A DNA stretch of 64,000 bases from Martelella endophytica (lineage in GTDB: Bacteria; Pseudomonadota; Alphaproteobacteria; Rhizobiales; Rhizobiaceae), in the NCBI RefSeq assembly GCF_000960975.1, contig NZ_CP010803.1, positions 591,001 through 655,000 on the forward strand, given 5' to 3'. Both the position numbers and the translations under genes were made by a program. This document shows, piece after piece, positions 24,897 through 60,127 of this stretch. The notes below the pieces were generated by a model that had not been told where the DNA came from, made no database searches, and worked only from the letters and a program-made list of their open reading frames with translations. Within the stretch, counting starts at the first letter, position 1. Each line of letters starts with the position of its first letter.

Positions 24897-24923
24897 CAGA
24901 TTTGGTTGCGGGGGCAGGATTTG
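24897..24923. repeat. Left attachment repeat: copy of the tRNA-fMet 3' end
   Basis: These 27 bp are identical to 60045-60071. They contain the complement of CCA plus the acceptor/T-arm end of tRNA-fMet (TGGTTGCGGGGGCAGGATTT) and 6 bp beyond the gene. Outside the 27 bp the two loci differ at once. Duplication of a tRNA 3' end at the far boundary is the classical footprint of site-specific integration. Confidence 0.85.
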
Positions 24924-25256
24924 GACACTGTTTTATTCAAACCGACGATCGTGTCGCCAATGCAATGTTGAAGCCGAGCGATACGTGAGGTTGCTCGGAG
25001 AGGTTCGGTTTCAAAGCCGGAGTAATGAAGGTTCATGGCGTTGGGCACTGCGGCTTAGTGGCTCGCATGCTTCTGCAGATTCGAGAACCCGCCTCCAAGC
25101 TCTATGGACAATAGCGATATTTTGCGCAACGTCCTGTTTTGAGTCGCATGTGAGCGCATCGATACATGCTTCGGCTGATGCGATAGATTTATGCCGATCC
25201 TTTGCCAGCCGCCGGCGTCGTCCGAGCCATGCAATGGGTGTTCGACAACGATCAAA
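24924..25256. other. Island left end, no recognisable gene
   Basis: This 333-bp stretch separates the left repeat from an IS3 remnant. Open frames on both strands exist (for example one crossing the boundary from 24847) but none shows a recognisable protein, Shine-Dalgarno or coding-type third-position bias. Probably decayed island-end DNA. Confidence 0.5.
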
Positions 25257-25440
25257 GAGCTGGCCCGGTTTGTCTGATCAGTTTGGGACGTTTTGCTAAG
25301 TGGATTTCCGCCTCGATTATGCAACCACCATCATTGGTGCCAGCGTGTTGAAGTAGGCCTGATCCGGCGTCTGCCGGCCAAGGGATGAATGCGGTCGTCG
25401 GGTGTTGTAGAAGTTCAGATAACGACCGATGCCAGTGCGG
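25257..25440 (-). pseudogene. IS3 family transposase C-terminal remnant
   Basis: The minus strand encodes GIGRYLNFYNTRRPHSSLG, then RQTPDQAYFN and a stop after LAPMMVVA, the end of an IS3-type OrfB (the NTxRPHxxLG motif is diagnostic of the DDE transposase C-terminus). Downstream, AATCCACTTA and the AAACTGATCAGACAAACCGG stretch resemble the terminal repeat of this IS group, placing the IS end near 25257. Everything N-terminal is missing. The sequence from 25441 to 25504 is unassigned. Confidence 0.8.
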
Positions 25441-25504
25441 GCTTCGGACACCTAGATTGCGACGAGCGGGATATAGGCCGCATCAGCTAATGGGTCTGCG
25501 ATTT

Positions 25505-26377
25505 TTAGAGTGATCCTGCCAGCGCCTCCAGCGTCTTGATCAGTGCTGAATGGTCATCATCGCCGTCGCCCCTGGCGATCGCGGCATTCATCAGTTGCTC
25601 GGTCGCAGCCGCATTCGGCAGGGCGAGACCGATGTCGCGCGCGGCATTGACAGCAAGCGCCATGTCCTTGCGGTGGAGGCGAATGCGGAAGCCGGGCTCG
25701 AAGGTGCGTTCGATCATGCGTTCGCCGTGAACCTTCATGATCGTCGAGCCGGCGAAACCGCCCATCAGCGCCTCGCGCACCTTGGCGGGGTCAGCGCCCG
25801 CCTTCTTCGCGAACAGCAAGCCTTCCGCGACTGCCTCGATGGTCAGTCCGACGATGATCTGGTTGGCGACCTTGGCGGTCTGGCCGTCACCGACCGGGCC
25901 GACATGGGTAATGGTCTTGCCCATGGCTTCAAACAGCGGCCTGCCGCGTTCGACGTCAGCATCCGAGCCGCCGACCATGATCGTCAGCGCCGCGTTCTTC
26001 GCGCCGACCTCGCCGCCGGAAACCGGCGCATCGAGATAGCCGCAGCCCTTTGCCGCGATCCTTTCGGCAAAGGTCTTGGTTTCGACGGGCGAGATCGAGC
26101 TCATGTCGATGACCATCTTGCCTTCGGAAAGACCCTCCGCCACGCCGTTCTCGCCGAAGAGGACGGCGTCGACGTCAGGCGTATCCGGCACGATGGTAAT
26201 GATGATATCGGCGGCCTCGGCGACGGCCTTCGGCATGTCGCAGGCAACCGCCCCCTTCTCGACGAGGAATTCAGAGACCGGCTTCACCCGGTTGATGAAA
26301 AGTGTGTGGCCGGCGTCGATCAGATGCGCCGCCATGGGGCGCCCCATGAGGCCGAGGCCGATAAATCCGATGTTCAT
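25505..26377 (-). CDS. garR: 2-hydroxy-3-oxopropionate (tartronate semialdehyde) reductase
   Basis: A 290-residue beta-hydroxyacid dehydrogenase. MNIGFIGLGLMGRPMAAHL is the Rossmann start and GarR/GlxR signature; DAPVSGGEVGAKNAALTIMV (substrate loop, S120) and the catalytic lysine K169 in GDGQTAKVANQI follow. It reduces tartronate semialdehyde to glycerate, the end of glucarate/galactarate and glyoxylate routes. It lies 18 bp after the GHL6-type gene as the last gene of cassette (a). A relative reducing another 3-oxo acid cannot be excluded. Confidence 0.88.
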   Translation of the reverse strand: MNIGFIGLGLMGRPMAAHLIDAGHTLFINRVKPVSEFLVEKGAVACDMPKAVAEAADIIITIVPDTPDVDAVLFGENGVAEGLSEGKMVIDMSSISPVETKTFAERIAAKGCGYLDAPVSGGEVGAKNAALTIMVGGSDADVERGRPLFEAMGKTITHVGPVGDGQTAKVANQIIVGLTIEAVAEGLLFAKKAGADPAKVREALMGGFAGSTIMKVHGERMIERTFEPGFRIRLHRKDMALAVNAARDIGLALPNAAATEQLMNAAIARGDGDDDHSALIKTLEALAGSL

Positions 26378-26395
26378 GTGCTTTCCTTTCGTTTA

Positions 26396-28456
26396 CTACG
26401 CTTCGAACACCAACGCCTCGAACGTGCCGACCGGCGGCAACACGAACCAGCGAAGGTCGCCGCCCTCCGAAGGCTCGGCGGACACATCGGCTCCGGCCAC
26501 CAGCGTGCGCCCGGTTGGGCCAACGCCGCGGATGCCAAGCCTCAGGCCGGTGAGCACGGGCGGATCCTCATAGAGATTGTTGTGCTGGCCGCTGTAGTTG
26601 ACGAGATGAACCAGCAGCCGGCCGGTCTCGACCTGTCGCTGCAGCGTCACCTCGAAAAGCCCGTTGCCTTCGATCACGACCGGAAGCGCGTCCGGCCTTT
26701 CGGCGAGGAACGAGGTCACGAGGGTTCGATTGTCCGGCAGGCTATCGCGATGATAGAGCGCATCGGGATGCCAGGGGAAATAACAGCAGTCGCCTTCCCC
26801 GTATTGCCCCCGGATCACGCCCGGCAGATCGCTTTCGACCTCCGGGAAGCAGAGTTCCGGCGGGCCGAAGCGCTGCGGCGGAAGAAGTTTCAGCAATGTC
26901 ATGGCGCCATCGCGCGGTTCGCATGCATGGTAGACGCCGTCGAGCATATAGAGGCCAGCACCGGTTTTCTCCGCCTCGTCCGCATCCGCCTCGAAATAGG
27001 CGCCGCGCATGTCGCGCCGCATCGTAAGCCGCTCGCGGATCGGCAGGCTTTCGAGCGCCGGCTTTTCGCGGCGCGCGCCGCGCTCGTCGTAAAGGCCGGT
27101 CTCGCCGGTCGCGATCAGCAGTCCGCCAGCCTTCACCCAGGCATCCAGCGTCGCCGCCTCGCCGTCGGAGATGCAGGCGACATTCGGCATCACGATCGCC
27201 CGATAGCGGTCGAGATCGGTTTCGGCGAGCTTCTCGTCGCTGATGAAATCGAAGGGAATGCGGGCCTCGAGCAGCATCCGATAGGCGCCGCGGAAGGCCT
27301 GCGCACCCGCCGCGCGGGCATCCGTGCGGCCGCGATAGGCATTGGTGCCGAAGGAATGGTAGAGGCCGACACGGGCGGCGGACGAGAGACCGGTATAGTG
27401 TTCTTCGTTGCGGGCATGCCATTTGTAGAGACGCTCGATGGCCGGGAAGGCCTTCTTGTCCTGCTGGTCCATGACGCCGAGCAGGTAATAGTCGAGCGTC
27501 GCGCCGCTTGCGAGCTGCTGGGCCATGCGCAGTTCCTGGTAGGCGCCGGTTTCCGAGACGAAGCGCCAGGCGAAGTCGATGAAATTGGTCGCCGTCGACG
27601 CCGCCATCTTCTCCGGCGCATAGGCCCGCGCCCAGCGCGCCTGCTCACCCGACTGGTAGGGCCATTCCGGCTGCGCCCGGTCGACGGCGCGCTGCACCTC
27701 CATGCGGATGAAATCGTTCTTGCCGCGCTGGCCGCTCATGGCGACGCGCGGATTGACCGCCTTGATGTGGTCGTAGATGCGGCCGCTGAGCTCGCGCGAG
27801 GTACGGTCCTTGAATTCCACATAGTCGGGGTAAGCCTCGCAGGCAAAATCCTCGCGCTCGGGCAGCGCCTTGCCATACATCTGGCGAAACCGCCGCTGGC
27901 AGTTCTCGCACACGCAGATGCCGAAATCCTCCCCGGAATAGGTCGTGGTTCGGTAGCCGAACATGTTGAAGAACACGCCGTCGACGTCATAGCGCCCGAG
28001 CGCCTCGGAAATGATGTCGAAGGCATATTGCTGGTACCAGCCGCCGTTGACGCAGGCCTGGTAGGTGCCGTTGTATTCGAGTGGCCGGCCCTGCCTGTTG
28101 TGCACGAACCATTCCGGATGGGCCTCATAGGCGATCCGGGTCGCCTTCGACATGTCGAAGCGCCCGACCAGCGCCAGCCCCTCCTGATGCGCCGCCTCGA
28201 TCGCGTCGCCGAGGGCATCGCCCTTCATCATCGGGTTGCGGGCGTGGAGCGGCAGGTCGGTCGGGTAGAAGGCATAGATGCCGCCGATGTTGTAGAGCAG
28301 GACATTGGCGCCGAATTCCCGGGTCTCGCGGGCCAGCGCCTTCTGGTCGTAAAGCGCGTCCGGCTGGCGCAGGTTGGTCTGGACCATCCGGTAGGGCTTC
28401 TGCCACCACGCCTTTTCTCCGGCCAGATTGATATTTCCCCCGGTTTTCTCCGACAT
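26396..28456 (-). CDS. GHL6-type putative glycoside hydrolase (copy 1)
   Basis: A 686-residue protein with a predicted (beta/alpha)8 catalytic region followed by a beta-galactosidase-trimerisation-like domain; the best family recognised is hypothetical glycosyl hydrolase 6. Motifs: NIGGIYAFYPTDLPLHARNP (about residues 57-76), AHPEWF, YNGTYQACVNGGWY (about 124-137), DGVFFNMFGY, and CVCENCQRRFR. No signal peptide, so it acts on imported material. A paralogue (37032-39074) shares all these motifs. Between the garR gene and the ABC importer genes, which suggests an oligosaccharide or glycoside delivered by that importer. Enzymatic activity of this family is unproven. Confidence 0.78.
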   Translation of the reverse strand: MSEKTGGNINLAGEKAWWQKPYRMVQTNLRQPDALYDQKALARETREFGANVLLYNIGGIYAFYPTDLPLHARNPMMKGDALGDAIEAAHQEGLALVGRFDMSKATRIAYEAHPEWFVHNRQGRPLEYNGTYQACVNGGWYQQYAFDIISEALGRYDVDGVFFNMFGYRTTTYSGEDFGICVCENCQRRFRQMYGKALPEREDFACEAYPDYVEFKDRTSRELSGRIYDHIKAVNPRVAMSGQRGKNDFIRMEVQRAVDRAQPEWPYQSGEQARWARAYAPEKMAASTATNFIDFAWRFVSETGAYQELRMAQQLASGATLDYYLLGVMDQQDKKAFPAIERLYKWHARNEEHYTGLSSAARVGLYHSFGTNAYRGRTDARAAGAQAFRGAYRMLLEARIPFDFISDEKLAETDLDRYRAIVMPNVACISDGEAATLDAWVKAGGLLIATGETGLYDERGARREKPALESLPIRERLTMRRDMRGAYFEADADEAEKTGAGLYMLDGVYHACEPRDGAMTLLKLLPPQRFGPPELCFPEVESDLPGVIRGQYGEGDCCYFPWHPDALYHRDSLPDNRTLVTSFLAERPDALPVVIEGNGLFEVTLQRQVETGRLLVHLVNYSGQHNNLYEDPPVLTGLRLGIRGVGPTGRTLVAGADVSAEPSEGGDLRWFVLPPVGTFEALVFEA

Positions 28457-28546: not shown

Positions 28547-30277
28547 TCAGCCGGCCGGCATCGCCCGCTCGTCGAAACGGGTGCGGTGGAGCATGCGCTT
28601 GTTGCGTGGGTCCGGATTCGGCACGGCGGAAATCAGCGCCTGCGTGTACGGGTGGTCCGGCGCCGTGCAGATCTTCTCCGCCGTTCCCGTCTCCACCACC
28701 CGGCCGCGATGCATCACCGCGACCCGGTCGCAGAAATAGCGCACCACCGAAATGTCATGGGCAATGAACAGGAAGGAGAGGTCGAGCCGGGTCTGCAGGT
28801 CGAGCAGCAGGTCGAGAATCTGAGACCGGATCGAGACATCCAGCGCCGACGTCGCCTCATCGGCGATGATGACGCGCGGGTTGAGCGCCAGCGCCCGGGC
28901 GATACCGATGCGCTGCCGTTGCCCGCCGGAAAAGGCGTGGGGATAGCGATCCATGGCATCCTGCGGCAGGCCGACCATCTCGAGAAGCGCGCCGACCCTC
29001 TCCTCGAGTGCCCTGCCCTTCGCCAACCCGTTGATCCAGAGCGGATCGCCGACGACCTGCTTGACCGTCATGCGCGGGTTGAGCGAGGCGAACGGGTCCT
29101 GGAAGATCAGGCGCATCTCGGCGTGGTAGCGGCGCAGCGCCTTCTTGTTCATCGTCAGGACGTCGGCCTCCCGGCCGCTCCTGTCGCGATAGGTGACCGA
29201 GCCGGAGGAGGCCTCGATGATCCTGAGGATCAGCCGGCCGAGCGTGGTCTTGCCCGATCCGCTTTCGCCGACGATGCCGAGGTTCTCGCCCGGCATCAGG
29301 TCGAGGTCGACATGATCGACCGCAAGCAGTCCCGAGGTTGCTCCCTTGCCGCCGCCGAAATATTTGGTGAGGCCGCCCACGGAAAGGATCGGCTTGGCCT
29401 CAGCGGTCGGAGCCGCCGTCTCCCGGACCTCGGCATGATGCTCCAGCTTGCGGGTCATCGACAGCAGATGGCGGGTATAGGGGTGGGCTGGCGCGTGGAA
29501 GATCCGGTCCACCGGCCCCTCCTCCACCAGCCGCCCGTAACGCATCACCGCGACATTGTCGGCGACCTCGGCGACGATCCCCATGTCGTGGGTGATCAGC
29601 AGCACCGCCATGCCGAATTCGACCTGCAGCCGCTTGATCAGGTCGAGGATTTCGGCCTGGGTGGTCACGTCGAGCGCGGTCGTCGGCTCGTCGGCGATCA
29701 GGATGTCGGGATTGCAGGCAAGCGCCATCGCGATGCAGACGCGCTGGCGCATGCCGCCCGAATATTCGAAGGAATAGCGTTTGGCCATCTCCTCCGGATT
29801 CTTGATTTCCACTTGCCGCAGCAGCTCGATCGTCCGCTTGCGCGCCTCCTTCTTGTCGAGATGGAGGTGGATCTCGATCGCCTCGTCGATCTGGTCGCCG
29901 ATCGTGTGCAGCGGCGAAAGCGCCGACATCGGCTCCTGGAAGATCAGCCCGATCCTGCCGCCGCGCACCGCCCGGATATGAGGTCCGGTCGGCTTCAGCG
30001 CGGTGATGTCGACGGGCTTGTCGCCACCGGAAAGCACGATCTTCCCCGCGCTGATCCGTCCGGGCTTGTCGACGATCTGCAGCAGCGAGCGCGCCGTCAC
30101 CGACTTGCCCGAGCCGCTTTCGCCGACGAGGCAGAGCGTCTCGCCGCGCTTCAGTTTGAAGCTGACCTCGCGCACCGCCGGAAAAACCGAATTGCGCAGC
30201 CTGAACTCGACCGAGAGGCCGTCGACCGACAGCACGATATCGTCCGTTTCGCCAGCGATCCCTGTTTCGCTCGTCAT
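28547..30277 (-). CDS. Fused double ABC ATPase (DppD-DppF in one chain)
   Basis: A 576-residue protein with two complete nucleotide-binding domains. Start at 30277 ([10 protein letters not shown]) follows AGGAGGACCGGTA. Domain 1: Walker A GESGSGKS (52-59), YSGGMRQR (172-179), [11 protein letters not shown]. Domain 2: Walker A GESGSGKT (337-344), [19 protein letters not shown]. The two are joined by a linker at about residues 278-296. The first domain lacks the usual cysteine tail, the second ends in [16 protein letters not shown]. Fusion replaces the two separate ATPases seen in the chromosomal importer at 8.5-10.5 kb. Confidence 0.93.
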
Positions 30278-30288
30278 TACCGGTCCTC

Positions 30289-31500
30289 CTAGTCGCTGTA
30301 TGGATCGGCCGCGTCGCGCAGGCCGTCGCCAAGGAAGTTGAGGGCAAGCACGGTGACCACCACCGCCACACCCGGCAGAAGCAGCCAGGGCGCGGTGGCG
30401 ACCGTGCGGATGTTCTGCGCCTCCTGCAGCAGCACGCCCCAGCTCACCACCGGCGGCCGGAGGCCGATGCCGAGGAAGGACAGCGCGGTTTCGCTGAGGA
30501 TCATCACCGGAATGGCGAGCGTGACCGCCGCAATGATGTGGCTTGCGAAGGACGGCAGCATGTGGCGCACGATCGTGCCGATCTCTCTCGCCCCATCGAG
30601 CCGGGCGGCGACGACGAAGTCCTCGTTCTTCATCGCGAGGAACCGGCCGCGCACCACCCGGGCAAGCCCGGTCCAGCCGACGAGCGACAGGATGATGGTG
30701 ATCATGAAATAGACCTGCACCGGCGGCAGCGTCGGCGGGATCGCGGCTGCGAGCCCCATCCACAAGGGGATCGTCGGGATCGCCAGCAGGAACTCGATCA
30801 CGCGCTGGATGATCGTGTCTGCCGCGCCGCCGTAATAGCCCGAGATGCCGCCGAGCAGCACACCGAAGATAAGGCTGAGGGTCACGCCGATGAGGCCGAC
30901 CGTCATCGAGATGCGGGTGCCGAAGATGATCCGGCTCAGCATGTCGCGCCCGAGGCGGTCCGCGCCCCAGAGATACATCGGCTGGCTCGGGTCGATCGGG
31001 CCGATCAGGTGACGGTCCATCGGGATCATGCCCCAGAGGCGGTAGGGCGCTCCGCGCACGAACAGGCCGACATCGATGCGGCTGTCCTCGTCGATGACGA
31101 ATTCGCGGGCAAAGCTCTCCGGATTGACCTTCACCTGATAGCCATTGACGTAAAGCCCCAGCCTTTCGCCATCCCATACGTGAAGCTGTTGAGGGGGCGC
31201 GTAAGTGTAGCGCGCGGCGAATTCATTGGGACCTTCGGGCGCGAGGAAATCGGCGAAGGCGGCGACGAGATAGATGAGGATCACCACCACGCCGCTCGCC
31301 AGAGCGAGTTTGTGGCGCCGGAACTTCCACCAGGCGAGCGTCCACGCGCCGGCCCGCTCCGCGCCCTTTTCCGGCCTGGTATCGTCGCCGAAACCATGCT
31401 CGGCATGGTCGTCGGCGAGCGCGCTGGTCTCTTCGAGCGTCTCCGGCTTGCCGTCGCTGTCCTTGCCGGCCGGGAACCAATGATCGTCTGAATGAACCAT
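30289..31500 (-). CDS. ABC transporter permease, OppC type with long N-terminus
   Basis: A 403-residue inner-membrane protein, about 100 residues longer than common DppC. The first 50 residues are polar (DDHWFPAGKDSDGKPETLEE), the first helix is at about 60-80, and a periplasmic insertion of about 110 residues (APPQQLHVWDGERLGLYVNG and on) precedes LGRDMLSRIIFGTRISMTVG. Such insertions are typical of OppC/YejE-like permeases. It starts at 31500 after GGGAGACC and ends ALNFLGDGLRDAADPYSD. Confidence 0.9.
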   Translation of the reverse strand: MVHSDDHWFPAGKDSDGKPETLEETSALADDHAEHGFGDDTRPEKGAERAGAWTLAWWKFRRHKLALASGVVVILIYLVAAFADFLAPEGPNEFAARYTYAPPQQLHVWDGERLGLYVNGYQVKVNPESFAREFVIDEDSRIDVGLFVRGAPYRLWGMIPMDRHLIGPIDPSQPMYLWGADRLGRDMLSRIIFGTRISMTVGLIGVTLSLIFGVLLGGISGYYGGAADTIIQRVIEFLLAIPTIPLWMGLAAAIPPTLPPVQVYFMITIILSLVGWTGLARVVRGRFLAMKNEDFVVAARLDGAREIGTIVRHMLPSFASHIIAAVTLAIPVMILSETALSFLGIGLRPPVVSWGVLLQEAQNIRTVATAPWLLLPGVAVVVTVLALNFLGDGLRDAADPYSD

Positions 31501-31511
31501 GATGGTCTCCC

Positions 31512-32498
31512 TTATCTGTAGCGGATGCGCGGATCGAGCCACGCGAGCAGCAGGTCGGAAATCAGGGTTCCGATCACGGTCAGCACCGACAGCATCAAGA
31601 TCATCGCGCCGGCGAGGTAGACGTCCTGCGAGATCAGCGCCCGAAGGAGGAGTGGCCCCGTTGTCGGCAGGTTGAGGACGATCGCCGTCACCGTCGCGCC
31701 GGAGACCAGCTCGGGCAGCGCCCAGCCGAGTGTCGAGACGAAGGGATTGAGCGCGGCGCGCACCGGATAGCGCAGGATCAGCCGCCATTCCTTCATGCCC
31801 TTCACCCGCGCGGTGGTGACATAGGGCTTGTAGAGCTCGTCCAGCAGGTTGGCGCGCATGATCCGCACCAGCGAGGCGGTCCCCGACGTGCCGAGCACGA
31901 TCACGGGCACGATCAGGTGCTGGCCGAGGTCGGCGACCTTCGCCCAGCTCCACGGCGCGTCGACGTAACCCGGCGAGAACAACCCGTCGATGCTGACGCC
32001 GAACAGCTTCAGCGCCAGGTACATCATGATCAGCGCCAGCAGGAAGTTCGGCACCGCGAGGCCGATGAAGGCGATGAAGGTCGCGAAGTAGTCGCCGATC
32101 GAATATTTGCGGACCGCCGAATAGATGCCCACCGGCAGCGACACCACCCAGGTGAAGATCAGCGCGCAGAAGGACAGCACGAAGGTAAGACCGAGCCGGT
32201 TCCACAGCAGATCGGAGACCGGCACGTCCCAGTCGAACGACCGGCCGAAATCGCCATGAAACAGGATGTTCTTCATCCAGATGCCGTATTGCACCCAGAT
32301 CGGCTGATCGAGGCCATATTGCGCGCGCAGCATGGCGAGCGTCTGCGGGTCGATGCTGTCGCCCTGCTGCGACATCTGGGCCGCGAGCGTGGTGACGAAA
32401 TCGCCCGGCGGCAACTGGATCAGCGCGAAGGTCACGATCGAGATCGCGACCATCGTCGGTATCATGTAGAGCACGCGCTTGAATACGTAGCGTAGCAA
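31512..32498 (-). CDS. ABC transporter permease, OppB type (TTG start)
   Basis: A 328-residue membrane partner of the OppC-type permease. The TTG at 32498 (codes LLRYVFKRVLYMIPTM) is 6 nt after GGGGAGGA, a near-ideal Shine-Dalgarno, and puts the first helix right at the N-terminus as in all OppB proteins; an in-frame ATG at 32534 would add 12 unusual residues and swallow that site. Motifs: YGLDQPIWVQYGIWMKNILF, HGDFGRSF, and a C-terminus ending LAWLDPRIRYR. Confidence 0.88.
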   Translation of the reverse strand: MLRYVFKRVLYMIPTMVAISIVTFALIQLPPGDFVTTLAAQMSQQGDSIDPQTLAMLRAQYGLDQPIWVQYGIWMKNILFHGDFGRSFDWDVPVSDLLWNRLGLTFVLSFCALIFTWVVSLPVGIYSAVRKYSIGDYFATFIAFIGLAVPNFLLALIMMYLALKLFGVSIDGLFSPGYVDAPWSWAKVADLGQHLIVPVIVLGTSGTASLVRIMRANLLDELYKPYVTTARVKGMKEWRLILRYPVRAALNPFVSTLGWALPELVSGATVTAIVLNLPTTGPLLLRALISQDVYLAGAMILMLSVLTVIGTLISDLLLAWLDPRIRYR

Positions 32499-32613
32499 TT
32501 GCCCATCCTCCCCTGCAGGCGTTTGCCAGAGCATTTCGCAGTCAGGCGAAACACCCCGCGAAAATGCGCCAAAACAGATCGATAGAGCGGATTCCGTGAA
32601 AGGCCGAACCGCT

Positions 32614-33609: not shown

Positions 33610-33705
33610 CTTTATTTCCAATATTCGGGCATCAGCCCTGCGGCCGACGCGAAAACTGTCGAGTATCCGCCGCCGACCTTCGTCGGCAGCGGCCGTTCAC
33701 GGCGC

Positions 33706-50559: not shown

Positions 50560-50596
50560 GAAGCGCTCCTCCCGATGCACTCGACTGGCTGATTTC

Positions 50597-50641
50597 ATTA
50601 ATCAGACTAATGGGATTTGTCAAACCATTAATCAGACTAAT
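50597..50641. promoter_or_regulatory. Tandem operator repeats ATTAATCAGACTAAT
   Basis: The 15-mer ATTAATCAGACTAAT occurs exactly at 50597-50611 and 50627-50641, starts 30 bp apart. Each is a near-palindrome (ATTA-N-TC-N-GA-N-TAAT). They lie 38 bp upstream of the MalF-type start, in the promoter of the sugar-importer/GH2/dgoD operon, as expected for repression by the divergent GntR protein. Confidence 0.7.
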
Positions 50642-50689
50642 TACCTAAAACCATGGATTGACCGCAGGTTTACGGCTGTATAGGCTTTC

Positions 50690-50704
50690 ATTAATCTGAT
50701 TTAA
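50690..50704. promoter_or_regulatory. Third operator copy at the gntR promoter
   Basis: ATTAATCTGATTTAA keeps the ATTAATC-N-GAT-T core of the tandem sites. It lies just downstream of a promoter-like TTGACC (50658-50663) with TAGGCT 17 bp later, and 10 bp before the GntR start codon, so it would allow autoregulation. Confidence 0.6.
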
Positions 50705-50714
50705 AAGGACTGCA

Positions 50715-51452: not shown

Positions 51453-51594
51453 CGGTGCTCCGTTTCGGGGGGGGGGCTACCGTTGCCTCATGGGTTGGTG
51501 TCACTTCGTGCTCGCCGCGGTTTTCCGTCCGGGCGTGCTGCCAGCGCGGTGGATTTCAAGTTGGATCTGCGGATTTTGTCGCAGCCTGAAGCAA

Positions 51595-52497: not shown

Positions 52498-52524
52498 GGA
52501 AATTCAATCCGATGGTAAAGCTGA

Positions 52525-53499
52525 TCAGTAGGTTTCAAGGGCTTGGAGCAGAGCGGCGATGTAGCCGTAACAATAGGCAAAGGCGACGCCCTGCGGGTCC
52601 CGGCCGGAAATGGTCGGTACATGATCGGGCATGATCATGTACTTGTAACCCACCTCCTTGTAGGTCTTGAGCGAGGCGGCCATGTCCATGTCGCCTTCAT
52701 CGGGGAAGGTCTCCATGAAAGACAGTTTCCGGCCGCGAATATTGCGGAAATGCAGGTTGAAAATCTTGTCCCGGCTGCCGAACCAGCGAATGACGTCGTC
52801 AATCTCGTCGCGCGGGTTGTCCAGCATCTCGCCGACCGTGCCCTGACAGAAATTGAGCCCGTGATAGGGGCTCTCGCGCATCTGCACGAATTTTTTGAGC
52901 CCTTCGACCGTTCCGAGCACACGGGTAACGCCCTTGTAACCGGGCGGGGTATGCGGATCGTGAGGGTGGCAGGCAAGGCGGATCCTGTTGGACTCGGCGA
53001 CGGGGACGACGCGCTCGAGGAAGTAATCAATGCGCTCCCAGTTTTCGTCCTCCGGCAGCACGCCGGCCAAGCCAGTTGCGGCATTCTGGTCGGTCTGGTC
53101 CCAGCGAAACGAGGCGTTCAGCGAACCGCCGCGCCCCTTCTCGTCAGGTGTTCGCGGAATTCCGATCAGGTTGAGATTGTACTTGGCGGCGGGAATGCCG
53201 GCCTTGGCTAGATTTTCAACCAGGGTACAGATCGCATCGATCTGTCTTTCGCGCTCGGGGCCGGCCAGCAATATGTCCGGATAGGTCGCGGTCTCGATCG
53301 GGCTGGAGGGGAGGGGAAGCTGGATCATATCCAGAACCAGATCGAACGCCTCGACCTTTTCGCGCAGCCGCAAAAGATCGTCCAGTGTCCATGAGCCGGG
53401 CTCGCCCGCTGGGTCGGCGCAGATGTGCTTTATGCCCAGCTGGGCCCAGACCCGATAATCCTCATCATCGCGCGCGGCGAGTTGGGTACCCACATACAT
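52525..53499 (-). CDS. Mannonate dehydratase-like protein (UxuA family), short
   Basis: A 324-residue TIM-barrel protein of the UxuA family; E. coli UxuA is 394, so this form lacks about 70 residues. Start at 53499 (MYVGTQLAAR) is 6 nt after GAGGAG. The Mn-binding set of characterised UxuA enzymes is recognisable: H178 in CHPHDP, C218 in NFCQGTVGE, H250 in FNLHFRN and D292 in MPDHVP. The product of true UxuA is 2-dehydro-3-deoxygluconate; pairing with kdgD rather than a KDG kinase suggests a different acidic sugar. Confidence 0.85.
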   Translation of the reverse strand: MYVGTQLAARDDEDYRVWAQLGIKHICADPAGEPGSWTLDDLLRLREKVEAFDLVLDMIQLPLPSSPIETATYPDILLAGPERERQIDAICTLVENLAKAGIPAAKYNLNLIGIPRTPDEKGRGGSLNASFRWDQTDQNAATGLAGVLPEDENWERIDYFLERVVPVAESNRIRLACHPHDPHTPPGYKGVTRVLGTVEGLKKFVQMRESPYHGLNFCQGTVGEMLDNPRDEIDDVIRWFGSRDKIFNLHFRNIRGRKLSFMETFPDEGDMDMAASLKTYKEVGYKYMIMPDHVPTISGRDPQGVAFAYCYGYIAALLQALETY

Positions 53500-53517
53500 A
53501 CCAATCTCCTCTTCAGG

Positions 53518-53533
53518 CATATGACATAATATG
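53518..53533. promoter_or_regulatory. Dyad CATATGACATAATATG before the dehydratase gene
   Basis: CATAT and ATATG arms flank GACATA. The inner CATAATATGA resembles CATAATACGA at 54347-54356 in the GntR/receptor promoter region. Candidate internal operator between the GntR gene and the dehydratase gene; weak evidence. Confidence 0.3.
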
Positions 53534-53554
53534 AATTTTAGGGCCTGTCGAGAG

Positions 53555-54262
53555 CTATCTTGCCAATCGTCGATAACGTTTCTGACTCCCGATCAAATGA
53601 TCGCGCATGGCCTGACGGGCCGCTTCCGGATCCTGGTCGGCGATAGCATCCAGTATAAGCTGATGTTCATTCAGCACCCCGAGGAGGTACTGTCGGTCTG
53701 TGGCGCTGGGCAAAGTGGGAAACTGACCGCGTGGTATGGATCGCTGGCCGAATTGCTTGAGGGCGTCAGTGAAGTAGCGATTGTTGGTGGCTTCGGAGAT
53801 GGCCATGTGAAAGGCCAGGTCGGCGTCCACTGTGGGTGCGTCCGTCTCGATAAGTCGCTGCATTTCCTGGTTGGCGTTGCGAATGGCATCTTCCTGTTGC
53901 GCAGATCGCCGATAAGCCGCGACGGCGGCGGCTTCGGTCTCGATAGCGATACGAAATTCAAGCATTTCAAGCGTTTGTGGAATGCTTTGGATTTCGATGG
54001 GGGTAAGGATGAATCCGGTGCTGGGCAGGTCTTCGCTGACGAACATACCCTTGCCCTGAACAGGTGTGACCAGGCCCGCCGAGCGCAGTTCGGCAATGGC
54101 CTCACGCACCACGGTACGGCTCACGGAGAACTGCGCTTCCAACTGCGGCTCTGTGGGTAATTTGGCTCCGGCCGGCAGTTCGCCGTTCTCGATCTTTTGC
54201 CGGAATTGCTCGACAAGGGCCTGAGCAAGTCTGGGCCTGCGGTGCCGCGTCATCTGGGCCAT
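53555..54262 (-). CDS. GntR family regulator with FCD domain
   Basis: A 235-residue FadR-subfamily regulator of the UxuR/ExuR/LldR kind. Start at 54262 (MAQMTRHRRPRLAQ) follows GAGGAAAG; 17 upstream codons are excluded. wHTH at 15-75 (LPAGAKLPTEPQLEAQFSVS, TVVREAIAELRSAGLV), FCD domain 95-225 (RIAIETEAAAVAA, DLAFHMAISEATNN, EHQLILDAIADQDPEAARQAM). Divergent from the second peptide-class importer and co-directional with the dehydratases, so it likely controls all of cassette (c). Confidence 0.92.
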   Translation of the reverse strand: MAQMTRHRRPRLAQALVEQFRQKIENGELPAGAKLPTEPQLEAQFSVSRTVVREAIAELRSAGLVTPVQGKGMFVSEDLPSTGFILTPIEIQSIPQTLEMLEFRIAIETEAAAVAAYRRSAQQEDAIRNANQEMQRLIETDAPTVDADLAFHMAISEATNNRYFTDALKQFGQRSIPRGQFPTLPSATDRQYLLGVLNEHQLILDAIADQDPEAARQAMRDHLIGSQKRYRRLAR

Positions 54263-54405
54263 AACACTTTCCTCTTCGAACCCTTTCTCGCCAACTGTGG
54301 CTCTTAGTCGCATTAACTATTGTCAATCCGCCAAAGATGCAATAGTCATAATACGACATACGACCGACATCGCATGTTGGTATGTTATATCGAGGAGGAG
54401 TATCA
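54263..54405. promoter_or_regulatory. Divergent promoter region of cassette (c)
   Basis: Holds TTGGTATG (54377-54384), like half of the TTGGTATACCAA operator known for UxuR/ExuR-type FCD regulators, and the CATAATACGA word (54347-54356). A strong GAGGAGGAG ribosome site ends the region before the receptor ATG. Confidence 0.45.
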
Positions 54406-56004
54406 ATGAAGCTTTTTTCTACCCGATTCATTTCGGGCGCCGCTCTTGCCATGGCTTTGTCCGTGGCGCCTGCGGCCTTTGCCCGCACGCCGGTTGACCA
54501 GTTGGTGATCGGTACCTCACTGGCGCAGGTTCTCTCGCTCGACCCGCAGCAGGGTACAGAGGTCAAGACGCAGGAAATATTGGCCAACACCTATGATCGC
54601 CTGGTGCAATTCAGCGGTGAGGAAGGCTATGCCATCCGCCCGCAGCTGGCCGAAAGCTGGGAAGTCGACGATACCGGCATAACATTTCATCTGCGCGATG
54701 CGACTTTTGCGTCCGGCAATCCTGTCACCGCAGCGGATGTAGTGTTCTCGCTGACGCGCCTGATCATGATGGATCAGTCGGCCGCCGCGAATCTCAAGAA
54801 TGTCGGCTACACGCCTGAAACCATCGCCGATCTCATCTCAGCCCCGGACGAGAAGACCTTCCGCATCGAGATGACCGACAGTGTCATTCCCGAGTCGCTG
54901 CTCTATCGTCTGGCCGGTGGCACGGCGAGTGTCGTTGATAGCGCCGTTGTTAAAGAGCATGTTTCCAATGACGACTATGGCAATGCATGGCTGCGGACCA
55001 ATACGGCGGGCTCTGGTCCCTTTGTCCTGCGCCGCTGGACCCCGAATGATGTGGTGCTGCTCGAAGCCAATGAACAATATTGGGACGGTGCACCGGCCAT
55101 GCGTCGCGTCATCATGCGGCATGCGCCCGAGAGTCAGGCCGCCCGCCTGATGCTGGAACGCGGCGATATCGATGTCGCCAATGCGCTGACCGCGCCGGAT
55201 GTGCTGACCTTTACCGACAAGGAAGGGTTCTCCATCGACGAGGTCAAGACAGGCGGCTATTACGTTCTGTCGATGAATGCCGGCCGCGAGCCGCTGTCCA
55301 ATCCGTTGGTGCGTGAGGCCATCGCTTACGGTATCGACTATCAGGGCATCGCCGACACGATCCTTGGCCCCTATGGCCGGCCGCGCAATGTCCCCGTACC
55401 TGAGGATTTCGAAGGCGCGATCGATAATCCGGACTGGTCTTTCCAGCCTGAGCGGGCGCGTGAGCTGCTGGCCGAGGCAGGGTATGCCGATGGCTTCGAT
55501 CTCACCTTGAAGACCATTGCACAGACCCCGCGTGTCGATATGGCCACCGCCATTCAGGCCAGTCTGGCCGACATCGGCATCAATGTCAGCATTCAGCAAG
55601 GCAATGGTTCGGATATCGTCGCCTCGCACCGTGCGCGTGATTTCGATCTGCTTATCCCCCAAACCGGGGCCTTCATGCCGACGGCCCTGGGGTCGATCGA
55701 CAATTTCGTCACCAATCCGGACAACGCGCTCGAAGCCAACAATGCCGGCAATTTCGTGTGGCGCTCGGCCTGGGACATTCCGGAGCTGAATGCGATGCGC
55801 AACGAGGCCAATGGCGAGCGCGACGATGCCCGCCGTCTCGAATTGCTGCGGCAGATGCAGGAAATGTTCATCGCACAGAAACCCGCCGTGCTGCCGATGT
55901 TCGAACGGTTTGAACCCATCGTGATCAGTGAACGGGTTCACGGCTATGAGGGGCACCCCTGGTCGTTGACCCGCCTCGACGACGTCACCAAGACCGAAGA
56001 CTAA
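54406..56004 (+). CDS. Peptide-class ABC substrate-binding protein (SBP family 5)
   Basis: A 532-residue periplasmic receptor. ATG at 54406 after GGAGGAG; signal peptide residues 1-26 end APAAFA before RTPVDQ. Family motifs: LDPQQGTEVKTQEILANTYD, LRDATFASGNPVTAADVVFS, NTAGSGPFVLRRW, AIAYGIDYQGIADTI and AREEL-type RARELLAEAGYADGFDL. With the GntR-controlled sugar-acid dehydratases alongside, the ligand is probably an acidic sugar derivative or glycoconjugate rather than a peptide, although the fold alone cannot say. Confidence 0.9.
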   Translation: MKLFSTRFISGAALAMALSVAPAAFARTPVDQLVIGTSLAQVLSLDPQQGTEVKTQEILANTYDRLVQFSGEEGYAIRPQLAESWEVDDTGITFHLRDATFASGNPVTAADVVFSLTRLIMMDQSAAANLKNVGYTPETIADLISAPDEKTFRIEMTDSVIPESLLYRLAGGTASVVDSAVVKEHVSNDDYGNAWLRTNTAGSGPFVLRRWTPNDVVLLEANEQYWDGAPAMRRVIMRHAPESQAARLMLERGDIDVANALTAPDVLTFTDKEGFSIDEVKTGGYYVLSMNAGREPLSNPLVREAIAYGIDYQGIADTILGPYGRPRNVPVPEDFEGAIDNPDWSFQPERARELLAEAGYADGFDLTLKTIAQTPRVDMATAIQASLADIGINVSIQQGNGSDIVASHRARDFDLLIPQTGAFMPTALGSIDNFVTNPDNALEANNAGNFVWRSAWDIPELNAMRNEANGERDDARRLELLRQMQEMFIAQKPAVLPMFERFEPIVISERVHGYEGHPWSLTRLDDVTKTED

Positions 56005-56023
56005 GCAAACCGGCCGGCCGATC

Positions 56024-57052
56024 ATGACGGAATTTTCGCTCATCGAACTGGGCAAACGCCTGGGCCAGCTTGTGCTGAGCCTGTTTGTCCTGCTCGTCGT
56101 AACCTTCGTAATCGGTCGCGTCATGCCGACGGATCCGGTTGGTGCAATCGTCGGTGAACTGGCCGATCCCGCAGCCCTTGAGGCCATGCGGGCGCGGCTG
56201 GGGCTTGACCTGCCGCTTTACCAGCAGTTCTGGATCTATCTGATGGGCCTGCTGCACGGCGATCTCGGCAACGCCATTCTGACGGGAAACCCGGTGATGC
56301 AGGACCTGCGGGCCGCATTCCCGGCCACACTCGAACTGGCGACACTGGCTGTCATTCTTTCGACCCTGATCGGGGTTCCTTTGGGCATGACCGCGGCTTT
56401 TTTCCGCGACACCTGGATCGACCGGCTTGCCCGGATTCTCTCGCTGGTCGGGCATTCCATCCCGGTCTTCTGGTTCGGCATTGTCGGTCTGGTCATCTTC
56501 TATGCCAGCCTGTCCTGGGTTGGCGGACCGGGGCGTGTCGACATCTATCTTGAAGGTCTTGTGGAACCGCGCACCGGTCTGCTGCTGATCGACAGCCTGT
56601 GGGCCGGCGACTGGGAAGTTTTCCGGAGCGCGGTTCACCATATCATTCTGCCGGCTGCAATCCTGGCCTATTCCGCCATGGCCTATATCACTCGCATGAC
56701 CCGCAGTTTCACCCTTGAACAACTCAACCAGGACTATGTGGTCGCTGCCAGGGCCAAGGGCGCATCGAACTGGCGCATTCTGGCCGGTCACATCCTGCCG
56801 AACATCGCCGTTCAGCTTGTTACCATCCTCGCCATCTCCTATGGCAGCCTGCTTGAGGGGGCCGTCGTCACCGAGATCGTGTTCTCGTGGCCCGGTATCG
56901 GACAATATATGACCAATGCCCTGATGATCGGTGACATGAATGCCATACTGGCGACCACCCTGATCATCGGCGCCATTTTCATGATGCTCAATTTCCTTTC
57001 GGATCTTGCCTATCTGGTTCTTGATCCGCGTACACGCGAGGTAGCCTCGTGA
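56024..57052 (+). CDS. ABC transporter permease, DppB type
   Basis: A 342-residue membrane subunit. Starts MTEFSLIELGKRLGQLVLSL; helices follow at about 15-35, 100-120, 135-160, 200-220, 260-280 and 305-330. LGLDLPLYQQFWIYLMGLLH plus GDLGNAILTG and the EAA loop QDYVVAARAKGASNWRILAG are DppB hallmarks; it ends YLVLDPRTREVAS. Overlaps the next gene by 4 bp. Confidence 0.92.
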   Translation: MTEFSLIELGKRLGQLVLSLFVLLVVTFVIGRVMPTDPVGAIVGELADPAALEAMRARLGLDLPLYQQFWIYLMGLLHGDLGNAILTGNPVMQDLRAAFPATLELATLAVILSTLIGVPLGMTAAFFRDTWIDRLARILSLVGHSIPVFWFGIVGLVIFYASLSWVGGPGRVDIYLEGLVEPRTGLLLIDSLWAGDWEVFRSAVHHIILPAAILAYSAMAYITRMTRSFTLEQLNQDYVVAARAKGASNWRILAGHILPNIAVQLVTILAISYGSLLEGAVVTEIVFSWPGIGQYMTNALMIGDMNAILATTLIIGAIFMMLNFLSDLAYLVLDPRTREVAS

Positions 57053-57942
57053 CCACCACGACCATTCAATCTCCGGCCCATCAGGCCTTTACACGCCTTG
57101 TCACCGGCTTGCGCAACGCGCTGTCGAAACTCTCGCAGGAGCCGGTGGGCATGTTCGGCTTCCTGTTTCTGGCGTTGCTGGCGGTCATCGCCATTCTCGC
57201 CCCGCTGATCGCGCCCTACAGCCCCACCGCGCAGAATCTCGGTCAGGCGTTGTTGCCGCCCAGTGCGGCACACTGGGCCGGCACGGACGAGTTCGGTCGC
57301 GATATTCTCTCGCGTCTGATTTATGGCACACGCATCACGTTCCAGACCGTTCTGGCCGTCTCCTTCATCGTCGGCCCCCTGGGGCTGGTTATCGGCATTG
57401 TGGCCGGCTATATCGGTGGCAGGACCGATGCCGTTCTCATGCGCATTACCGATATCGTCCTGTCCTTCCCCTCGCTGGTGCTGGCACTGGCGTTTGCCGC
57501 AGCGCTGGGTGCCGGTCTGGGAACGGCCATCATCGCCATCTCGCTCACGGGCTGGCCTGCCATTGCCCGCCTTGCCCGGGCCGAGACCCTTGTCGTGCGC
57601 AATACCGACTATGTTGCCGCCGCCCGCCTTTATGGCGCCTCACCGGTTCGATTGCTCGCGCTCTACATTGCGCCCATGTGCATTCCCTCGGTGGTTGTGC
57701 GGCTTACCCTGAACATGGCGGGGATTATTCTCACCGCTGCCGCTCTTGGTTTTCTGGGGCTTGGCGCCCAGCCGCCCGCGCCGGAATGGGGCGCGATGAT
57801 CTCCAGCGGCCGGCGCTTCATGCTGGACAACTGGTGGGTCGCCGTCATGCCCGGTATCGCCATTCTTTTCACCAGCCTGGCCTTCAACCTGGCCGGCGAT
57901 GCACTTCGTGACATATTGGATCCCCGTCATGCCCGCTCCTGA
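57049..57942 (+). CDS. ABC transporter permease, DppC type
   Basis: A 297-residue partner permease (GTG start, TTTIQSPAHQ). GTDEFGRDILSRLIYGTRIT at about residues 80-99 is the DppC signature; EAA loop DYVAAARLYGASPVRLLALY; end LAGDALRDILDPRHARS. Its last 14 bp are shared with the start of the next ATPase gene. Confidence 0.92.
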   Translation: MTTTTIQSPAHQAFTRLVTGLRNALSKLSQEPVGMFGFLFLALLAVIAILAPLIAPYSPTAQNLGQALLPPSAAHWAGTDEFGRDILSRLIYGTRITFQTVLAVSFIVGPLGLVIGIVAGYIGGRTDAVLMRITDIVLSFPSLVLALAFAAALGAGLGTAIIAISLTGWPAIARLARAETLVVRNTDYVAAARLYGASPVRLLALYIAPMCIPSVVVRLTLNMAGIILTAAALGFLGLGAQPPAPEWGAMISSGRRFMLDNWWVAVMPGIAILFTSLAFNLAGDALRDILDPRHARS

Positions 57943-58771
57943 TCCTATCCTATCCGTTCGTGACCTGGCCGTTCGCTTCGGCCGTTCCAGTATCGTGGCG
58001 GTCGACGGTGTCAGCTTCGACGTCGGCGCCGAGCGCGTCGGCGTCGTGGGAGAATCCGGCTCGGGCAAATCGACCATGGGACGCGCCATCATGCGGCTCC
58101 TGCCGCCATCGGCGGATGTTGCTGCAGGCAGACTTGATTTTGAGGGCGCACCCGTTCTGACGCGCAGCGAAAAGCAGATGCGCGGCCTGCGCGGCAACCG
58201 CATGGCGCTGATCATGCAGGACCCGCGTTATTCGCTGAACCCTGTGCTTTCTGTCGGAAAGCAGGTCGCCGAAGCTGCCAGGCTGCACCAGAAGCTGGGA
58301 AAGAAGGCGGCCTATGATCGCGCCGCGGAAATGCTCGAACGTGTGCACATCCGCGACGTGGAGCGGACCATGGCACTTTATCCGCACCAGATTTCCGGTG
58401 GTATGGGGCAGCGCGTCATGATCGCCATGATGCTGCTGGCAAAGCCCCGGCTGGTCATCGGTGACGAGCCGACATCCGCACTTGATGTCAGCGTGCGCGG
58501 CGAAGTGCTCTCACTACTCGACGAGATGGTACGGGAAAACAATTCCGGCCTTCTGCTGATCAGCCACGATATCCGCATGGTGGCCGCCTTCTGCGAACGT
58601 ATTCTCGTCATGTACAAGGGACGCGTCGTGGAAACGCTGACGCGTCTGGAAGACGCCCAGCACCCCTATACTCAGGGTCTGGTCGGCGCGATGCCCGATC
58701 CGCGCCATCCGGTACGACGGCTCGCGACACTGGACCGGGCGGCCATTGAAAAAGCGGAGGCATTGCCGTGA
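57929..58771 (+). CDS. ABC transporter ATP-binding protein, DppD type (short)
   Basis: A 280-residue ATPase. Start at 57929 (MPAPDPILSVRDLAV) lies inside the end of the permease gene. Walker A GESGSGKS (41-48), signature ISGGMGQR (glycine where arginine is common), Walker B LVIGDEPTSALD, switch LLISHDIRM. The usual C-terminal cysteine domain is missing; the protein ends after PHPVRRLATLDRAAIEKAEALP-like sequence. Overlaps the next gene by 4 bp. Confidence 0.9.
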   Translation: MPAPDPILSVRDLAVRFGRSSIVAVDGVSFDVGAERVGVVGESGSGKSTMGRAIMRLLPPSADVAAGRLDFEGAPVLTRSEKQMRGLRGNRMALIMQDPRYSLNPVLSVGKQVAEAARLHQKLGKKAAYDRAAEMLERVHIRDVERTMALYPHQISGGMGQRVMIAMMLLAKPRLVIGDEPTSALDVSVRGEVLSLLDEMVRENNSGLLLISHDIRMVAAFCERILVMYKGRVVETLTRLEDAQHPYTQGLVGAMPDPRHPVRRLATLDRAAIEKAEALP

Positions 58772-59505
58772 TCGAGGTCACTGAGCTCAACGTATCATTC
58801 GGTGCGCGCGACGCCCGTAAGCATGTCGTCAAGTCTGTCTCCTTTGCGGTGAAACAAGGCGAGACGCTCGGCATTGTCGGCGAATCCGGCTGCGGGAAGT
58901 CTACGGTTCTGCGCTCGCTCGCCGGTCTGGATCGTCATTGGGAAGGGCGCATTGCCCTGTCCGGACAGCAGGTGAACAAGACCCGCAGCCGCGAACAGCT
59001 CGCGCTTGCCCAGATGGTGTTTCAGGATCCGTTCGGCTCCATCCATCCGCGTCATCGTATCGAGCGGGTTCTGGCCGAGCCGATACGGGCCATGGGGCGC
59101 GGCAGTGGATGGAACCTGGTCGGGCCGGCGCTGGAACGTGTCGGCCTGCCCGCAACCTTCGCCGAGCGTTTTCCGCACGAACTCTCCGGTGGCCAGAGGC
59201 AGCGCGTGGCCATTGCGCGCGCACTCATGCTGGAGCCGGAAATATTGCTTCTGGATGAACCGACCTCGGCGCTCGATGTTTCGGTGCAGGCCGAAATCCT
59301 GAACCTGCTGGCTGATCTGCGGGACGATCAAAGGCTGACCTATGTACTGGTCAGCCACGACCTGGCCGTGATTGCCCATATGTGCGATCGTGTTCTGGTC
59401 ATGAAGGATGGCGCCTTCGTGGATGACCTTTCCAGGCAGGATCTGGCCGCCGGCATCACCCATCATCCATACGCAGCCAGTCTGTTCGCGGCCAGCTATC
59501 TTTGA
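58768..59505 (+). CDS. ABC transporter ATP-binding protein, DppF type (short)
   Basis: A 245-residue ATPase (GTG start, IEVTELNVSFG). Walker A GESGCGKS (38-45), [19 protein letters not shown], Walker B LLLDEPTSALDVS, LVSHDLAVIAHMCD. It ends right after the HHPYAASLFAASYL segment without a cysteine tail; common DppF proteins have about 80 more residues. Because IS debris starts 10 bp later, C-terminal loss by insertion is possible, but the core ATPase is intact. Confidence 0.9.
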   Translation: MIEVTELNVSFGARDARKHVVKSVSFAVKQGETLGIVGESGCGKSTVLRSLAGLDRHWEGRIALSGQQVNKTRSREQLALAQMVFQDPFGSIHPRHRIERVLAEPIRAMGRGSGWNLVGPALERVGLPATFAERFPHELSGGQRQRVAIARALMLEPEILLLDEPTSALDVSVQAEILNLLADLRDDQRLTYVLVSHDLAVIAHMCDRVLVMKDGAFVDDLSRQDLAAGITHHPYAASLFAASYL

Positions 59506-59514
59506 GAGATCTGC

Positions 59515-59789
59515 TCAGACGATAGGCCGGGTGATCAGTTCACCGTGAGCCGTAATCGATAGGTTGTTTGACCTGAGACCCGACGACCCTCCATTTCTCC
59601 GGAGAGTCTGGTTTTTCTTGTGATACGCAAATGGCGCGGTGGTAGCAATCGGCAGAAACGCATAGCCTCCTTCCTGCGCAGCGCTGGAGCCGATTGCGGC
59701 GATAGTCCCGGCATAGGCTGCCGGGTTTTGGTATCCAAGCGATGAGTGTGGCCGGAAATTGTTATAGTAGTCGGCCCACCCGTCAATGG
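59515..59789 (-). pseudogene. IS3 family transposase C-terminal remnant
   Basis: Minus-strand frame reads GWADYYNNFRPHSSLGYQNP, then AAYAGTIAAIGSSAAQEGGY and a tail ending ITRPIV at a stop at 59515-59517. The YNNFRPHSSLGYQNPAAYA motif is the C-terminus of an IS3-type OrfB. It is a different element from the one at 25257. Its inner edge cuts the serine recombinase gene at about 59790. Confidence 0.8.
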
Positions 59790-59993
59790 CAGCACGCTAT
59801 CGCGAGCAGGTTACAGAGCTCTTCGCCGGCTTGGGCGAAGCTAATCAGATGCTGGGCTCGAAGGAAGAGCTGCGAGATCTGATCGAGAAGATTGTTCTGA
59901 CTCCATCGGACGACGGAGCGGGTCTCGATATCGACCTTCATGGCGCGATTGCGGGGCTACTGCATCTCGCAACGGGTGTATCGGCGCAGAATA

Positions 59994-60026
59994 GCAAAAA
60001 GGCTTCACCCGACGAGAGTGAAGCCC
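59994..60026 (-). terminator. Intrinsic terminator after tRNA-fMet, island-borne
   Basis: GGCTTCAC (60001-60008), 9-nt loop, GTGAAGCC (60018-60025); on the minus strand the stem is followed by five T residues (complement of 59996-60000). It lies 25 bp beyond the tRNA 3' end and inside the recombinase remnant, so it is island sequence doing the work of the displaced terminator at 24863-24892. Confidence 0.8.
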
Positions 60027-60050
60027 TTGATATTGTTGATAAAACAGATT

Positions 60051-60127
<77 letters not shown>

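Follow-up and report, generated by a model that had tools for sequence, protein, structure and literature searches.

Islands and prophages with tyrosine integrases at the 3' ends of tRNA genes rebuild the end of the tRNA and displace a stub of the original gene, and in rhizobia tRNA-Met genes are used in this way, according to the accessible text of two reports (PMC8627217, PMC11476347). Serine recombinases at tRNA genes have been termed rare; the available part of the same source lists actinomycete integrative and conjugative elements (AICEs) of Mycobacterium at tRNA-Leu and phage phiRSM1 at tRNA-Ser (PMC3218068). A serine recombinase is combined with a predicted tRNA-Met site in phiPam-6 (vB_PamS_Pami6), a functional phage of Paracoccus aminophilus (PMC3925955, PMC6536676), and in streptococcal integrative and conjugative elements (ICEs) at rumA the attR site lies within the serine integrase gene, the C-terminus of which is altered on integration (PMC4701971). 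Here we describe a locus of Martelella endophytica that shares traits with these systems, an island of about 35 kb with the remnant of a large serine integrase gene that runs through the attachment site into an initiator tRNA-Met (tRNA-fMet) gene. The island lies at 24.9-60.07 kb of the 64-kb stretch that was analyzed (the window), which corresponds to positions 591001-655000 of contig C1 in a one-contig 4.81-Mb genome (G000).

The locus also differs from each of the described systems. The tyrosine integrases belong to a different recombinase family. PhiPam-6 is a phage rather than a metabolic island, and it is likened by its description, the available text of which mentions neither overlap with the tRNA nor a terminator. 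The rumA elements target a protein gene, the 3' part of which is exchanged, and their accessible description includes no tRNA or terminator; the Mycobacterium elements use other tRNAs and hosts, and the corresponding text describes no overlap. Neither a tRNA overlap with a stop in the anticodon loop nor a built-in terminator was found described in the open-access literature searched, a scope with subscription papers mostly outside.

The island is bounded by a 27-bp direct repeat (CAGATTTGGTTGCGGGGGCAGGATTTG), present in identical copies at 24897-24923 and 60045-60071. A third copy was not found in the window with up to three mismatches allowed, and none of 100 dinucleotide shuffles of the window contained the 27-mer. 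The repeat comprises the 21 bp at the 3' end of tRNA-fMet and 6 bp beyond it. ARAGORN placed a tRNA-Met(CAT) at 60051-60127 on the minus strand, starting with CGCGGG and ending with CAACCA, which we take to be the ends of the initiator form. Rfam families at the gathering score in the window were tRNA, 5S (60372-60487) and 23S rRNA (60697-63627), with none besides. The hallmark of a tRNA-associated island is thus present, with a tRNA 3'-end repeat, an intact tRNA gene on one side and a stub on the other. Two claims of a first-pass annotation, which had been made from the sequence alone, were thereby verified, namely the exact duplication of the last 21 bp of tRNA-fMet with 6 bp downstream and the placement of an island at the 3' end of this gene. 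The element is a real decayed genomic island, and its integrase belongs to a widespread layout that we did not find described.

At the right end, the open reading frame (ORF) at 59786-60094 ends in the tail LVAGAGFEPAAFRL, and its last ~13 codons are the antisense of the tRNA. Taken alone, this ORF matched no NCBIfam or Pfam model. However, over all of its 102 aa it is 85-86% identical to the C-termini of 568-573-aa serine recombinase frames in G000 and G007, and as a query it found matches in 30 of 199 genomes of the family. One match in G000, at C1:1022744-1023049 (85% over 102 aa), is part of a 573-aa frame at C1:1021331-1023049 adjoining a second tRNA-fMet gene, and a shorter integrase remnant lies alongside the third (4810744), so that all three tRNA-fMet genes found in G000 carry this integrase or a relic of it at their 3' side. 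Similarity of the window DNA to the intact integrase gene starts at 59776, leaving ~320 bp of the gene with the tRNA overlap included; of an estimated ~573 aa, the window retains the C-terminal 102, which lack a domain match. All seven full-length relatives scanned contain Resolvase, Recombinase and Zn-ribbon domains. A serine at position 26, presumably the catalytic one, is invariant across 20 aligned integrases. Among solved structures, 12 sequences matched, with the integrase of TP901-1 as the best, and all matches fell inside query residues 1-160, that is, in the catalytic part only.

The remnant of a serine recombinase abutting the right repeat had been noticed in the first-pass annotation, and the identity to longer serine recombinases confirms it; the passage of its frame through the repeat into the tRNA and the family-wide layout had been missed. 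Loss of mobility, also proposed there, holds in cis, where the island's own integrase is broken. Mobilization in trans is still conceivable, because both att ends are still there and the genome also encodes an intact integrase related to the broken one. Next to this intact integrase (G000:C1:1005000-1024500, 13772-15429 within that segment) are genes for a DUF1403 protein and a ScpB-like protein, possibly a recurrent pair on such elements.

The extent of the overlap was surveyed independently of the tail by searching the 199 genomes with only the N-terminal 456 aa (E <= 1e-50). This identified 73 places in 52 genomes and 40 of 109 genera; 62 loci were analyzed, the remaining 11 being mostly low-ranking. 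At 36 of the 62, the integrase frame extends into a tRNA-Met gene and has its stop exactly 41 bp into that gene, which is of the initiator type in 26 cases and of the elongator type in 10. At three more loci the tail is present where no complete tRNA was found. The stop codon TGA, antisense to the anticodon loop, overlaps the antisense of the anticodon CAT, so that both types of tRNA-Met supply the stop. Identities of aligned members to the first one are as low as 32%.

Two further sets, which are best-scoring samples overlapping in part with the family set and do not represent rates, extended the picture. Among the best 80 of 583 relatives in named genomes, 38 stop at +41 (37 in initiator genes), 15 have the tail with no complete tRNA found, 21 end otherwise, and six run off the contig. 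Among the best 80 of 592 in viral contigs, 12 end in tRNA-Met (one of them at +40), one in tRNA-Ser(GCT), 26 otherwise, 38 have the tail with no complete tRNA found (many at a contig end), and three run off the contig. The single tRNA-Ser(GCT) case (L343), in which the frame ends at +38, indicates that the layout is not confined to tRNA-Met. The clade is broad and, judged by record titles, mostly alphaproteobacterial, and it uses initiator or elongator tRNA-Met. In a FastTree phylogeny of 174 sequences, initiator, elongator and Ser labels require at least five changes, and the use of initiator or elongator genes appears clustered. The labels derive partly from tail motifs, viral loci lacking tail or tRNA and frames shorter than 530 aa are excluded from the tree, and L221/L215 is a suspect join. 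At four loci (L231, L237, L241 and L256), the full tRNA-encoded tail is present and the tRNA sequence ends immediately after the stop codon; these are perhaps element-borne copies of a tRNA 3' half.

The 21-bp stub followed by ACACTGTTTT occurs at seven distinct places in four genomes (two in G000 including the window, one in G005, two each in G007 and G009), and G009:C5 has a near copy of this combination. At loci where the integrase frame extends beyond the acceptor-end core without entering a tRNA, the site often forms a palindrome that combines the acceptor end of the tRNA with a mirror-image copy of it, as in ATCGGTGGTTGC-8 bp-GCAACCACCGAT (L281) and ATTGATGGTAGC-8 bp-GCTACCGTCAAT (L194). 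With 22 centers allowed, the best palindrome center fell after base 11 from the tRNA 3' end at 21 of 29 loci, which were hand-picked among the non-fitting ones for VAG/VAE-type tails. As these loci are related to each other, the count is no probability; L334 and L370 have no core and stand outside it. Sites were rebuilt from four pairings of element ends, all of which also gave center 11.

Two other sites are of note in this context. An 18-bp stub with a similar left arm (GGACACTGTTTTGT) at G010:C1:1638043 (L400) is missing the usual terminator on its left, and we regard it as a rearranged or secondary site. In G062, contig C27 (42974 bp) carries two integrase genes, one of them in attP form, and is perhaps a free or tandem element.

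A predicted intrinsic terminator accompanies the integrase end at most initiator sites. Under a strict rule, such a terminator was predicted no more than 80 nt from the tRNA at 43 of 63 loci of the initiator type, whereas shuffles averaged 5.65 (at most 11 in any of 20 sets) and inner control windows of the same integrase genes gave 8 of 252. This rule, with loci split by tRNA type and duplicate integrases removed, replaced an earlier loose one, by which 60 of 85 loci were positive versus 27 in shuffles. The counts suggest that at most initiator sites the element supplies a predicted terminator where its entry would displace one. The displaced counterpart in the window would be the hairpin at 24863-24892, which the first-pass annotation had called a terminator. 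It can be seen by eye and looks like those at other fMet genes, but it was not listed by the consensus terminator scan, which demands T residues after the stem.

Displacement also appears to have occurred repeatedly at these genes. In G012, stubs at 688013, 766746 and 903445, each followed by an attP-type arm, lie ahead of a full tRNA gene at 971538 with a 569-aa integrase frame. Integrase pieces precede two of the three stubs (a near full-length match up to 766746 and a C-terminal piece at 903445), and none was hit at 688013. In G000 itself, stubs at 863344 (decayed) and 895765 lie ahead of the tRNA gene at 1023009, with no further exact core in the 895.5-1005.5 kb region. Over 140 bp, the sequence flanking the stub at 895765 is 98.6% identical to that beside the tRNA-fMet gene at 4810744, which would be an in-genome picture of displacement for a sister element at 895.8-1023.0 kb. 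G060 presents a compact case, with the integrase at the tRNA and the stub 20.7 kb off. The stub matches at G000:2134507, G006:3458988 and G060:C2:886556 were left out of the locus analysis. Two stub-like 12-13-mers each in G006 and G060 have no attP arm and were taken as chance, and a candidate att relic in the middle of the island, at 39.3 kb, was dropped as it contains no core sequence.

We consider it very probable that the stretch from 24.9 to 60.07 kb is an integrative element, now decayed, of a large serine integrase specific for tRNA-Met. In the proposed course of events, the integrase would have joined a palindromic attP to that end of the tRNA-fMet gene which encodes the acceptor stem, crossing over at about bases 11 and 12 from the tRNA 3' end. 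The element half-site would restore the 3' end of the tRNA, the opposite strand of the integrase gene would supply a new terminator, and the original 3' end and terminator would be pushed 35 kb away. Upon integration, the integrase frame would become fused to the tRNA antisense and end at the TGA of the anticodon loop. Later, the integrase would have been reduced to its last ~320 bp, and catabolic modules and debris resembling insertion sequences (ISs) would have come to fill the element. A single short stretch of DNA would then encode the end of the integrase, hold the attachment site, form the 3' end of the tRNA and, at most initiator sites, provide a predicted terminator. Such a multi-role stretch would explain why tRNA genes linked to ribosomal RNA (rrn) operons tolerate repeated insertion and tandem arrays. 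Serine integrases are favored DNA-insertion tools, and for this clade attP, attB and crossover can be predicted from sequence. The layout also offers a testable case of an integrase C-terminus that depends on the integration state. A functional role of the overlap, by which a tRNA-encoded tail in the integrated state (e.g. VAGAGFEPAAFRL) and an attP-encoded tail in the free state (e.g. VAGARNHRYRHSLEVAI) would act as a sensor for direction, together with mobilization of the island in trans by the intact copy at 1.02 Mb, is a speculative extension that we regard as rather unlikely.

Several observations speak against insertion by this route or limit what can be said about it. The GC content of the island (0.616) reveals no boundary to two parts of the flanks (0.614 and 0.628). 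The +41 rule fails at 23 of the 62 loci, where genes are truncated or broken, ends are in attP form, or no tRNA-Met is nearby. Elongator-type loci had a terminator under the strict rule in only 1 of 18 cases (shuffles 0.8; inner control windows 5 of 72), and the terminator claim is therefore limited to initiator sites. The right arm of the window reads CAGATT, versus CAGTGT in relatives, and an exact attP of this clade had no match in viral contigs. Of 22 bases, 19 matched in one rebuilt site of G012 (903445/971538), 11 in that of the window, and 10 each in that of the sister element of G000 and in a second G012 pairing (766746 joined to the right end at 903445), compared with a median of 9 and a 95% level of 12 in random sets; the window value is thus not significant alone, nor are the two values of 10, and the palindrome is strong in only one of four pairings. 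The window may nevertheless back the site weakly, by the position of the center and the 7-bp arms AAAACAG/CTGTTTT and not by the match count. Finally, the empty site expected from the first-pass annotation, a junction of gabD, terminator and tRNA-fMet, was not found in the relatives searched via gabD. Of the 12 other genomes available for the genus, three have gabD orthologues (89-93%), with no tRNA in the 1.5 kb downstream or in 20-80 kb around these genes. The missing empty site neither supports insertion nor contradicts it.

Most integrative and mobilizable elements in tRNA 3' ends use tyrosine integrases, according to the accessible text of one report (PMC5704250), tRNA-Met is such a site in rhizobia, at least in the portions available of the work concerned (PMC8627217, PMC11476347), and tandem stubs mark the fMet site as a hotspot. 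A tyrosine integrase, the usual enzyme for tRNA 3' ends, could therefore have brought the island, with the serine recombinase piece as a leftover of another element at the same place. Nevertheless, this appears improbable, as no tyrosine recombinase was found among 30 ORFs scanned with NCBIfam, the left end has the sequence seen at seven distinct places of the clade, and both ends yield, albeit weakly, a palindrome with the family center. Still harder to credit is an origin of the 24.9-kb stub by rrn/tRNA recombination or duplication. Operons for rRNA are recombination points, and the region to the left of the stub is not syntenic with relatives. However, the stubs in G005, G007 and G009 end at the same base and continue with the same or nearly the same element-end sequence, and the flank shared by the stub at 895765 and the third tRNA-fMet gene is what displacement predicts.

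More serious, though in our judgment still somewhat short of an even chance, is assembly of the cargo on site rather than arrival of the 35 kb as one piece, through homologous recombination and the action of ISs within a small, older fMet element with integrase-made ends. It is a variant of insertion by the serine integrase, so that our confidences in the two overlap. IS-like remnants at 25.24-25.45 kb, at 39.36-39.86 kb and before 59.78 kb would fit such a history, as would two modules (A and B, Table 1) that lie apart in G005 with identities of 87-95%, compared with 91.8% for the rpoB reference, and a garR gene that is 95% identical to a copy at 2.17 Mb of G000, with neighbors at 69-73%. However, G005 could just as well have received the modules from a complete island.

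Table 1. Features of the island and its surroundings (positions in the window)
Feature	Position	Strand	Basis or remark
Accessory block: ABC transporter genes, biotin carboxylase, LysR regulator, gabT, gabD	12065-24750		One block, 91% in G009:C25 and 89% in G003:C12, no tRNA near
Displaced terminator-like hairpin of the tRNA-fMet/rrn operon	24863-24892	-	Seen by eye; similar to hairpins at other fMet genes and stubs
attL, left repeat; 24903-24923 is the 21-bp stub of the tRNA-fMet 3' end	24897-24923	+	Identical to 60045-60071; stub also present elsewhere in the genus
Outer attP arm, left end of element, CTGTTTT	24928-24934	+	Reverse complement of 60041-60047; ACACTGTTTT after stub at 7 distinct places including the window
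IS-like remnant (IS nature inferred)	25241-25451		Multi-copy in relatives, 86-89%
2-hydroxy-3-oxopropionate reductase, garR-like	25505-26377	-	TIGR01505 above cut-off
GHL6-type putative glycoside hydrolase	26396-28456	-	PF14871
Peptide-type ABC transporter with ATPases and two permeases; overlapping ORFs with uncertain starts	28547-32534	-	NCBIfam, mostly under cut-offs
D-2-hydroxyacid dehydrogenase	32614-33621	-	NCBIfam, below cut-off
Family 5 solute-binding protein	33706-35757	-	PF00496
GntR/FCD regulator	36057-36896	-	PF00392, PF07729
Second GHL6-type putative glycoside hydrolase	36942-39074	+	PF14871
IS-like remnants (IS nature inferred) at edge of module A	39360-39860		Up to 95% to places in relatives, partly multi-copy
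Module A: GntR, short-chain dehydrogenase/reductase (SDR), SMP-30 lactonase, enolase-superfamily enzyme, sugar ABC transporter, GH2-like protein, GntR	39884-51450		87% and 95% to G005:C15:53466-65056
Module B: kdgD, uxuA-like, GntR, second peptide-type ABC transporter	51593-59505		93% to G005:C3:261440-269354; KdgD above cut-off
Debris between module B and integrase remnant	59506-59775		Integrase similarity begins only at 59776
C-terminal 102 aa of large serine integrase; frame crosses att core and stops inside tRNA-fMet	59786-60094	+	85-86% over 102 aa to longer copies; tail LVAGAGFEPAAFRL
Intrinsic-terminator-like hairpin for tRNA-fMet, within the integrase frame on the opposite strand	59998-60028	-	Stem of 13 pairs followed by a T-rich tail
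Outer attP arm, right end of element, AAAACAG	60041-60047	+	
attR, right repeat: 3' end of intact tRNA-fMet and 6 bp	60045-60071	+	
Intact initiator tRNA-Met gene	60051-60127	-	ARAGORN, Rfam, end sequences

The left flank did not turn out to be the sensible chromosomal neighbor that the first-pass annotation had assumed. The genes gabD and gabT were confirmed by family (TIGR01780 and NF005692, both above cut-off). Positions 1-11994 are core in several relatives, the core ends at about 11994, and among six relatives compared the sequence that follows is common only to G004 and G010. The block with gabD is itself accessory and apparently not the ancestral flank of tRNA-fMet, and the expected junction was unseen in relatives. 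The whole island was found in none of 12 other Martelella genomes among the matches listed, which held pieces only. In G003 (C12:424885-494065), gabD, an fMet stub (470841) and an fMet gene (493994, at the contig end) follow each other in one orientation, the stub 44 kb and the gene 68 kb downstream of gabD. This loose likeness to the window may reflect an older shared neighborhood.

The cargo includes three ABC systems and four GntR regulators (36057, 39948, 50715 and 53555). Because of KdgD, the UxuA-like and GarR-like enzymes, the SMP-30 lactonase, the enolase-superfamily and GH2-like proteins, the two GHL6 proteins and the ABC systems, it appears suited to the import and degradation of uronates, aldonates and glucuronide-like compounds, with substrates deduced from family membership. 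Phage structural, replication or conjugation families were absent from 30 ORFs scanned with NCBIfam (some on the non-coding strand) and from Pfam rescans, and the scanned island ORFs had no relaxase or conjugation-gene family. PHROGs gave one match among eight window ORFs, of unknown function. The debris before the integrase remnant is putatively IS-like from its look and is assigned to no family. A cargo of transport and sugar-acid catabolism without phage or conjugation genes, as originally proposed, was thus supported by the scans. The cargo is composite, since modules A and B sit at two separate loci of G005. Their identities, set against rpoB, speak for transfer between species. In the left part of the island, paralogues in G000 and relatives are at 69-73%, with garR excepted. 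This gene (25515-26382) is 95% identical to a copy at G000:C1:2171312-2172179, which suggests a recent duplication or conversion.

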